DNA of 64,000 bases from Vulcaniibacterium thermophilum (GTDB taxonomy: Bacteria; Pseudomonadota; Gammaproteobacteria; Xanthomonadales; Xanthomonadaceae). The first letter of the stretch is position 1. Each line of letters begins with the position of its first letter. Shown here piece after piece: positions 7,316 to 49,450 of the stretch. The translations under genes and the position numbers were made by a program. The notes beneath the pieces are model-generated. The model had not been told where the DNA came from and did not search any database. It saw only the letters and a list, made by a program, of their open reading frames with translations. The stretch spans positions 1 to 64,000 of the forward strand of contig NZ_VOHJ01000008.1 in assembly GCF_007923255.1 (NCBI RefSeq), read 5' to 3'.

Positions 7316-9901
<2,586 letters not shown>

Positions 9902-9937
9902 TGGGGACTCCCCCGAAGAAAGCGGAAACCGAGTTGC

Positions 9938-9966
9938 AGATGCGGCGCGCGGCGGCCGCTTTCAAG
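9938..9966 (-). promoter_or_regulatory. sigma32 (RpoH)-type promoter of clpB
   Basis: Read on the minus strand: CTTGAAA (9966-9960), a 14-nt spacer, then CCGCATCT (9945-9938). This is one mismatch from the heat-shock consensus CTTGAAA-N13-15-CCCCATnT, and it sits about 37 bp before the clpB start, as expected for a chaperone gene. Confidence 0.75.
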
Positions 9967-9989
9967 CAGCCGGCGACCGGCGGCGGCAC

Positions 9990-10018
9990 CTTGAAACCGG
10001 CGCCGCGCAGCCCAATCT
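9990..10018 (+). promoter_or_regulatory. sigma32-like promoter facing the trehalose operon
   Basis: Plus strand: CTTGAAA (9990-9996), a 14-nt spacer, then CCCAATCT (10011-10018). Spacing and sequence mirror the clpB promoter on the other strand, and both are followed by GC. The predicted start near 10025 would leave a leader of about 55 nt before otsB. The assignment to sigma32 is by pattern only. Confidence 0.5.
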
Positions 10019-10079
10019 GCGAGCGCCGCGGGACGCCGTCGACCTCGCGCTTACATCCGCCTGTCCACCCTATGTGCAC

Positions 10080-10850
10080 ATGGCGACGACGAATCCGAAC
10101 GACCTGCCACCCCCGCCGCCGCTGGCCCCGGACTGGGCGCTGTTTCTCGACGTGGACGGCAGTCTCCTCGAGTTCGCGCCCACCCCGGACGGCGTGCGGG
10201 TTCCCGACGAGCTGATCGCCACTCTGGGCCGCCTGCAGCAGCGGCTGGAAGGCGCGCTGGCGCTGGTCAGCGGGCGCTCGCTGGCGCAGTTGGATCGCCT
10301 GTTCGCGCCGTTGCGGCTGCATGCGGCCGGCCTGCACGGCCTGGAGCTGCGCGGCGCGCCGCCGCCGTCGCCGCCGGCGGCGTTGGCGGGCGTGCGCGAG
10401 AGCGCCGAGGCGGTCGCGCGCGACTTTCCGGGCGCGCTGGTGGAGGACAAGGGCGCCGCGCTCGCGCTGCACTGGCGCACCGCGCCGGAGGCCGCTCCCG
10501 CGCTGCGCGCCGCGGCCGAGGCCGCGCTCGCCGCGCTTCCCGGTTACCGCCTGCAGCCGGGCGATCACGTCGTCGAGGTGCGTCCCGACGGCGCCGACAA
10601 GGGCGCGGCGGTGGACCGCATGCTGGCGCAGCCGCCGTTCCGCGGGCGGGTGCCGGTGTTCGTGGGCGACGATCTCACCGACGAGGACGGCTTTCGGCGC
10701 GTGCGTGCGCGCGGCGGGCTCGCCGTGCTGGTCGGACTGCGCCGTCCCACCCACGCCACCCATGCGCTGGCCGACCCCGCCGCGGTGCGCGCCTGGCTGC
10801 GCGCCGGCGCGATCGACGCCCCGCACCCCCTCCAGGAGGCCCTCGGATGA
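10080..10850 (+). CDS. otsB: trehalose-6-phosphate phosphatase
   Basis: A protein of 256 residues of the HAD superfamily. The nucleophile motif [11 protein letters not shown] is near residue 22, [12 protein letters not shown] provides the second motif, and the Mg-binding [11 protein letters not shown] is near residue 198; all three are diagnostic of OtsB. It removes phosphate from trehalose-6-phosphate in the cytoplasm, the last step of trehalose synthesis. The ATG at 10080 starts MATTNPND; an in-frame GTG two codons earlier is an alternative. Its TGA overlaps the ATG of the GH15 gene (ATGA), so translation is probably coupled. First gene of otsB-GH15-otsA. Confidence 0.95.
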
Positions 10851-12713: not shown

Positions 12714-14165
12714 ATGAGCCGCCTGGTGATCGTATCCAACCGTGTCGCCGTCCCCGGCGAGTCCCGCGCCGGCGGCCTGGCCGTCGCGCTGCGCGCCGCG
12801 CTGGCCGAAACCGGCGGGCTGTGGTTCGGCTGGAGCGGCAAGATCGACCCCGACCGCTCCGGCTTCGTGCGCGAGCAGAGCGAGGGCAACATCCGCTACG
12901 TGACGATGGACCTGTCGCGGCGCGACCACGAGGACTACTACAACGGCTTCGCCAACCGCACGCTGTGGCCGCTGCTGCACTTCCGCATGGATCTGGTCGA
13001 CTACAGCCGCGAGACCTACGCCGGCTACCTGCGCGTCAACGCGCTGTTCGCGGAGAAGCTGGCGCCGCTGCTGGCGGACGACGACATCGTCTGGGTGCAC
13101 GACTACCACCTGATTCCGCTCGCCAAGCTGCTGCGCGAGAAGGGCGTCAGGGCGCGGCTGGGCTTCTTCCTGCACGTGCCGATGCCCTCCTCCGACCTGC
13201 TCGCCGCGCTGCCGGATCACCGGCGCCTGTTCGAGGGCCTGTCGCAGTACGACCTGGTCGGCTTCCAGACCGACCGCGACCTCGAGCGCTTCCAGGACTA
13301 CGTGCGCCTGTTCGGCGGCGGCCGCGTGGTGGAACCGGGCGTGCTGGAGGCGCCGGGCGGGCGCCGCCTGCGCGCCGGCGCCTTCCCGATCAGCATCGAC
13401 ACCGCGCACATCGCGCGCCAGGCCGAGGCCGCGGTCGGCAAGGCCAGCGTCAAACGGTTGCAGGCCAGTCTCGCCAACCGCGCGCTCGCCATCGGCGTGG
13501 ACCGGCTCGACTACTCCAAGGGCCTGCCGGAACGCTTCCGCGCGTTCGAGCGTTTCCTCAAGCGCCATCCGCAGCACGTGGGCCGGCTCACCTTCCTGCA
13601 GATCGCGCCGGTCTCGCGCGGCGAGGTCGCCGAATACCGCTCGCTGCGCAACGAGCTGGAACAGCTCGCCGGCCACATCAACGGCAGCCACGCCGAACCC
13701 GACTGGACGCCGGTGCGCTACGTCAACCGCAACTACCCGCACCCGACCCTGACCGGCTTCTACCGGCTGGCGCAGGTCGGCCTGGTGACGCCGTTGCGCG
13801 ACGGCATGAACCTGGTCGCCAAGGAATTCGTCGCCTCGCAGAACCCCGACGATCCCGGCGTGCTGGTGCTGTCGACGTTCGCCGGCGCCGCGCGCGAGCT
13901 GGACGCCGCCCTGCTGGTCAACCCTTTCGACATCGACGGCGTGGCCGATGCGATCGCGCGCGCGCTGCTGATGCCGCGCGCCGAACGTCGCGAGCGCTGG
14001 CTTGCGATGATGAAGAAGCTGCTCGCCCACGACATCACGCACTGGCGGCGCAGCTTCCTCGATGCGCTGCGCGACGCCGAGCGTCAGTTCGACTTCGATC
14101 CGCTGATCGTCGCGCCGCGCTGGAACGGCAGCAGCAGAAGCATCAGCGCCGCCAGGACGATGTAG
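12714..14165 (+). CDS. otsA: trehalose-6-phosphate synthase
   Basis: A protein of 483 residues, glycosyltransferase family 20. Visible family motifs: WFGWSGK near residue 41, [11 protein letters not shown] near 126, [26 protein letters not shown] near 263 and [13 protein letters not shown] near 362. These form the UDP-glucose and glucose-6-phosphate binding sites. A strong ribosome binding site (GGAAGGAGG) lies just before the ATG. It makes trehalose-6-phosphate for OtsB. The last 82 bp overlap the 3' end of the convergent permease gene; the final residues ([13 protein letters not shown]) are not typical of OtsA and may be a tail read through the opposing gene. Confidence 0.96.

Positions 14166-47997: not shown

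Positions 47998-49450
<1,453 letters not shown>

Follow-up and report, generated by a model that had tools for sequence, protein, structure and literature searches.

The 178-bp gap between the divergent genes clpB and otsB carries, within the 64-kb stretch of DNA analysed here (the window), two sigma32-like sites whose -35 boxes lie back to back with 23 nt between them. The promoter of clpB is genuine and of an ordinary kind. The site facing otsB matches the consensus as well as its partner, is rare in the genome and was found in this genome only, and it is a strong candidate promoter, which RpoH could probably use. In comparison with relatives, the heat link of the trehalose genes looks like a candidate case of a recent gain in this lineage. 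The coordinates of all features are listed in Table 1.

Table 1. Genes and predicted promoter elements around the clpB/otsB gap, in window coordinates.
Feature	Position	Strand	Details
clpB, ATP-dependent disaggregase ClpB, 861 aa	7316..9901	-	NCBIfam NF008118 1520.5 bits (cut-off 1417); TIGR03346 over cut-off
clpB sigma32 (RpoH) promoter	9938..9966	-	-35 CTTGAAA 9966-9960, 14-nt spacer, -10 CCGCATCT 9945-9938, then GC
Sigma32-like site facing otsB	9990..10018	+	-35 CTTGAAA 9990-9996, 14-nt spacer, -10 CCCAATCT 10011-10018, then GC
Window copy of the family otsB motif	10039..10071	+	TCGACC-N5-CTTACA-N10-CACCCT; 28.9 bits, window excluded from training
otsB, trehalose-6-phosphate phosphatase, 256 aa	10080..10850	+	TIGR00685 (T6PP) 134.4 bits (cut-off 68)
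GH15 protein, trehalase/glucoamylase-like, 597 aa	10847..12640	+	TreH1 283.7 bits, below cut-off 820
otsA, trehalose-6-phosphate synthase, 483 aa	12714..14165	+	TIGR02400 598 bits (cut-off 565)

The genes of the locus were assigned with NCBIfam models, and the mirrored copy of the promoter indeed faces otsB-GH15-otsA, as stated in the first-pass annotation. For the GH15 protein, the archaeal-type trehalase TreH1 was the top NCBIfam match; according to the coordinates, the start of its gene overlaps the stop of otsB by 4 nt. A GH15 trehalase-like gene inside a synthesis operon may represent a degrading enzyme. The order otsB-GH15-otsA recurs in many of the family loci fetched, L011 being an exception, and among the 80 top-scoring of at least 595 GH15 places, GH15 genes adjoin ots genes in other proteobacterial classes too. 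At its distal end, otsA overlaps by 82 nt (14084-14165) with the end of a convergent 533-aa frame on the opposite strand, for which no NCBIfam model matched. The window has a G+C content of 71%; the genome comprises 3,075,563 bases in 80 contigs with an estimated completeness of 99.99%.

Sigma32 promoters consist of a -35 box CTTGAA(A) and a -10 box resembling CCnCATnT, separated by a spacer of 13-15 nt. Scored against CTTGAA and CCnCATnT with spacers of 13-15 nt, both sites of the gap match at 13 of 14 positions and both have a spacer of 14 nt. The first-pass annotation had described matched CTTGAAA sites with 14-nt spacers on both strands, each followed by GC, which is exact on direct reading; its description of the clpB side as a textbook sigma32 promoter is likewise borne out by the consensus match, by the matrix score given below and by a sigma32-like site in 31 of 31 divergent relatives. 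Transcription from the otsB-side site would start near 10025, about 55 nt upstream of the otsB ATG. When the 178-bp gap was shuffled with its dinucleotides preserved, 0 of 20,000 sequences exceeded 12/14 on the plus strand (spacers 13-15).

A weight matrix was built from the clpB sites of 40 relatives and run over the 64-kb window, in which the clpB side scored first (28.6 bits) and the otsB side second (22.7 bits). The third-best site, at 49083-49111 (+), reached 21.6 bits; it lies antisense inside a frame which we read as murC-like, and it was taken as a chance match. One chance site of nearly the strength of the otsB side was thus present in 128 kb of strand, so that a single site of such strength is not proof.

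The rarity of the sites was assessed by scanning the whole genome with two patterns. The shared pattern CTTGAAAN{12,16}CCSMATCT had three matches in the 3,075,563 bases and none in the reversed control; the matches lie ahead of groES, clpB and otsB and nowhere else in the genome, two of the three being given in advance, since the pattern was derived from both window sites. The unfitted consensus CTTGAAA-14-CCCCATNT had 11 genome matches with up to two mismatches (control 0), among which three, including both window sites, had one mismatch. Six of the 11 places precede clpB, otsB, hslO, htpX, grpE and erpA, where the score of hslO (Hsp33), 219.5 bits, is below the model cut-off of 244. Of the other five, one falls within a glutaredoxin gene and four lie ahead of genes for a phage-type integrase and for a CxxCxxCC, a DUF1820 and a zinc-ribbon protein. 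Since clpB, hslO, htpX and grpE are heat-shock genes, the unfitted consensus picks up heat-shock genes, with some noise. The matrix gave 28.6 bits for clpB, 27.1 for htpX, 25.7 for groES, 22.7 for otsB, 21.9 for erpA, 18.1 for grpE and 16.7 for hslO. A pattern with a 13-nt spacer was found at seven places including groES (control 0). As a separate observation, the genes for erpA (L185), the CxxCxxCC protein (L180), the DUF1820 protein (L184) and the zinc-ribbon protein (L186) are possible unusual RpoH targets by virtue of the sites before them.

Sigma factors were searched in the genome with profile models. RpoH is present (424 bits, cut-off 323). No RpoS over the model cut-off was found in the genome; the best match, a 683-aa frame with 289 bits against 378.7, is read as an RpoD-like frame. 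Because the genome is estimated to be 99.99% complete and has no RpoS over cut-off, E. coli-type RpoS control of the ots genes seems unavailable.

For the conservation analysis, relatives with clpB and otsB divergent and less than 600 bp apart were collected (n = 32; 31 after removal of a duplicate). OtsB was present in 87 of 149 family genomes, the match in G140 being weak. Further loci were added by a GH15 search of public genome records, in which the 80 best of at least 595 places were kept, and extra upstream DNA was fetched. Three loci that duplicate the window (L002, L003 and L007) were excluded from the counts, and L058 and the GH15-search loci L060 to L116 were excluded from the family counts. 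Upstream sequences identical over the 73 nt before otsB were counted once, which reduced 115 loci to 104.

On the clpB side, a sigma32-like site was found in all 31 divergent loci (four of which, L055, a MAG, L056, L057 and L059, may fall outside the family of the window), with 11, 12 and 13 of 14 positions matching in 10, 17 and 4 loci, respectively; in shuffled gaps, 11/14 or more was reached in 47 of 6,200 cases. On the otsB side, none of the 31 relatives exceeded 10/14, which is the same as in shuffles of those gaps; scores of 7, 8, 9 and 10 were obtained in 2, 15, 9 and 5 loci. The best otsB-side matrix score among them was 11.6 bits, compared to 22.7 bits in the window, and within the gap only L118 has CTTGAA on the strand of otsB, where no -10 box accompanies it. 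In the 72 loci in which clpB is not adjacent or was not seen, the top otsB-side score was 11/14, in one locus. In the closest relative according to OtsB (L008, about 70% identical), the genes stand in the same order and the otsB-side site is missing. As far as visible, in a genus represented by one species, the site thus appears private to this genome. The first-pass annotation had proposed that both promoters be compared across relatives with this gene order; in this comparison the clpB promoter proved to be conserved throughout and the otsB-side promoter did not rise above background in any relative.

In 28 of 42 loci, the clpB leader contains a G+C-rich hairpin 10-11 nt past the -10 box (GCGGC...GCCGC, with changed but paired variants), for instance in L017, L059 and L056. 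It is absent in L008 and is not found at that place in the window (9902-9937, -). The stem length of 6.05 is little above the 5.35 of shuffles (L165 excluded).

In the alignment of the gaps, a different stretch, located just upstream of the otsB start, is conserved. It was described by a fixed-layout model, TCCACC-N5-CTNACR-N10-hexamer, which was trained on the scored loci with the window excluded. A score of at least 15 bits was obtained in 81 of 104 non-redundant loci (the window and 80 of the 103 others), while 23 remained below; shuffled controls, one per locus (n = 104), reached 12.6 bits at maximum. The motif is found with clpB adjacent (27/32, window included) as well as without (54/72). 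Among the 81 motif loci, the hexamer reads CANAAT in 32 and has a different sequence of the form xAxxxT in 44, and 5 fit neither; the CACCCT of the window departs from CANAAT. The ATG follows 6-8 nt past the hexamer in 80 of 81 loci, and a Shine-Dalgarno core precedes the otsB ATG in 2 of 81, compared to 37 of 43 for clpB. In the window copy, the AC cores are 11 bp apart and the -10-like hexamer lies 8 nt before the ATG; no Shine-Dalgarno sequence is visible ahead of this ATG, and a scan for sigma70-like promoters at 9500-10500 gave no match.

Two patterns derived from the motif were searched in genomes. The relaxed core pattern had two matches in the genome of the window, one of them at otsB. 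The strict CANAAT pattern had no match in the window; it was found at nine places in 60 family genomes, five of them at otsB (control 1), and no common theme was apparent among the remaining four. As OtsB was found in 33 of these 60 genomes, most otsB copies, including that of the window, escape the strict pattern. On this narrow evidence, the strict pattern looks mostly tied to otsB.

From the layout of the motif, we infer a leaderless otsB message, and the family otsB promoter is probably leaderless and independent of sigma32. Class II promoters of the OmpR/PhoB type carry, in place of a -35 box, repeats with a period of 11 bp. The family motif may be comparable, as its AC cores are 11 bp apart and its boxes end 10 nt before a -10-like hexamer. 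The layout is fixed in 81 of 104 loci, but the two boxes have only AC in common at the 11-bp distance; perhaps a putative activator of this type acts at the motif.

These results bear on the coupling of the ClpB disaggregase with trehalose that the first-pass annotation had proposed. One part of the proposal is supported, as the site facing otsB fits the consensus no less well than that of clpB; the other is not supported, as the otsB-side site is absent from 31 of 31 relatives. Because the otsB side is not conserved and the relatives share another otsB motif, the coupling is not a conserved arrangement. It would be at most a lineage-specific addition, with predicted activity.

It is possible, if somewhat doubtful, that the match on the otsB side is due to chance or has no function, that otsB is transcribed, as in relatives, only from the motif at 10039-10071 and that there is no heat effect through RpoH. 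The site is missing from all 31 relatives of the same gene order, and a chance site of 21.6 bits does occur in the murC-like coding DNA; moreover, the window was presumably picked out of many windows and genomes. Yet the score of the site was reached by none of the 20,000 gap shuffles, and elsewhere in the genome the shared pattern stands only at groES and clpB. The site furthermore combines a perfect -35 box with a 14-nt spacer like that of clpB, and a genuine sigma32 promoter lies beside it in the gap. A sequence of this kind, however it arose, should bind RpoH polymerase.

The explanation which we favour, and which we hold to be rather likely as a whole, combines an ancestral otsB promoter with a sigma32 promoter gained in the lineage. 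The 178-bp gap would accordingly contain three promoters, two ancestral and one gained. The ancestral sigma32 promoter, whose conservation was demonstrated above, would drive clpB. An ancestral otsB promoter not dependent on sigma32, composed of TCCACC, CTNACR and a hexamer 6-8 nt before the ATG, would drive the trehalose operon and yield a leaderless otsB mRNA, made presumably by the main RNA polymerase and perhaps with an OmpR/PhoB-type regulator. A sigma32 promoter, gained upstream of it by this lineage alone, would read otsB-GH15-otsA from about 10025. Under heat shock, clpB and the trehalose operon would then both be switched on by RpoH, in addition to the ancestral control of otsB, and the trehalose formed could aid refolding by ClpB. 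Use of the otsB-side site by RpoH, heat induction of the operon and the aid of trehalose to ClpB are predictions of this scheme. Two caveats apply. The otsB ATG lacks a Shine-Dalgarno sequence and would lie about 55 nt into a sigma32 transcript, so that this transcript might be translated poorly, and the GH15 partner, which resembles trehalases, would not help trehalose accumulation if it is a trehalase.

Concerning the origin of the gained site, a single template switch could have duplicated the clpB promoter in inverted orientation, in which case the match would reflect copying and not stepwise selection for co-regulation. A gapped local alignment of the two sides spans about 51 bases and scores 27. 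With the promoter boxes fixed and the rest shuffled, this score was reached in 25 (mononucleotide) and 37 (dinucleotide) cases out of 10,000; against the otsB side, the clpB promoters of 42 relatives did not score above 22. Against the clpB side, however, a score of 25 is attained by the unrelated erpA promoter and of up to 24 by clpB promoters of relatives, and the alignment has to be seen against a window of 71% G+C in which the stretch separating the sites is in part self-complementary. Both sides have CTTGAAA, the 14-nt spacer and ATCTGC in common, and the -35 box CTTGAAA itself was found in only 4 of 32 relatives at clpB, the commonest form being CTTGAAT (12). A repeat finder returned one pair of 15-nt arms at 80% for the mirrored geometry, but also two pairs of like quality in another geometry. 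An inverted duplication is thus suggestive from the alignment, though we regard it as rather unlikely; copying would in any case be compatible with use by RpoH. The fuller proposition, that a bacterium lacking RpoS gained heat-shock control of trehalose by a head-to-head copy of the clpB promoter within an 81-bp region of recent origin, is considered unlikely to a greater degree.

The symmetry of the half-sites in the window would also fit a reading of TTTCAAG-N23-CTTGAAA as the inverted-repeat operator of a dimeric clpB regulator instead of a promoter pair. However, CTTGAA occurs on the otsB strand in L118 alone of the 31 relatives, without a -10 box. Pairs of the form TTTCAAG-N{8,38}-CTTGAAA were found in 25 of 395 family genomes, against 14 in the reversed control, and among the 25 pair loci fetched, clpB or otsB was found in the flanks only at the window (a second pair of G181 is outside these 25). 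On these counts, the operator reading was disfavoured and is deemed highly improbable.

The promoter pair resembles known systems in part. According to the available part of the source, RpoH promoters of Pseudomonas aeruginosa contain TTGAA and ccATcT, and clpB is upregulated 10.8-fold (PMC9866376). For Xylella, the available part of a review gives an RpoH-dependent increase of clpB of about 10-fold at 40 °C and terms the heat response unconventional (PMC11764788). The proteobacterial RpoH promoters of E. coli and P. aeruginosa, and that of Xylella clpB, have the same boxes and spacer ahead of clpB; in contrast to these systems, a second such site faces the trehalose operon here. The word ‘trehalose’ does not occur in the main text on the P. 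aeruginosa RpoH regulon (PMC9866376), and in a paper on Salmonella RpoH its single occurrence is in a reference and no ots gene is named (PMC11548764). No ots gene under RpoH appears in the available parts of PMC12117332, PMC4167512 and PMC3188799. Among the matches listed for literature joining trehalose or ots with sigma32, RpoH, ClpB or heat shock, no RpoH-controlled ots gene was found in the parts available.

The trehalose genes of E. coli were reportedly placed under RpoS control, with a role in thermotolerance, by Hengge-Aronis in 1991. In this RpoS-dependent otsBA, otsB and otsA stand together as they do here, in an order which we take to differ from that of the window; unlike E. coli, the genome of the window has no RpoS over cut-off and has a GH15 gene inserted. 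After a shift of E. coli to 42 °C, the otsBA mRNA rises transiently and trehalose accumulates, with the rpoS mRNA hardly changing, as far as stated in the available part of PMC7572479. In Bradyrhizobium, otsCB and otsA are under the stress sigma factor EcfG and supply a chemical chaperone (PMC8092242, available part). This is similar in that a stress sigma factor controls trehalose genes, and different in that EcfG and osmotic stress, not RpoH, are concerned. Rhizobial otsAB has been linked to heat and desiccation tolerance, and the available text states no RpoH control (PMC6604987); otsA and otsB of Xanthomonas citri are induced in planta, where the accessible part of the paper names neither a promoter nor a sigma factor (PMC4986880).

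If active, the otsB-side promoter would be a direct link between RpoH and trehalose. In yeast, Hsp104 is linked with trehalose. Should the mirrored site indeed be an inverted copy of the clpB promoter, the locus would be a bacterial counterpart of this pairing, in which one sigma factor fires both a disaggregase and the supply of a chemical chaperone. With a separate ancestral trehalose promoter and heat control as an add-on in one lineage, the gain of a promoter beside an existing stress promoter would become testable.
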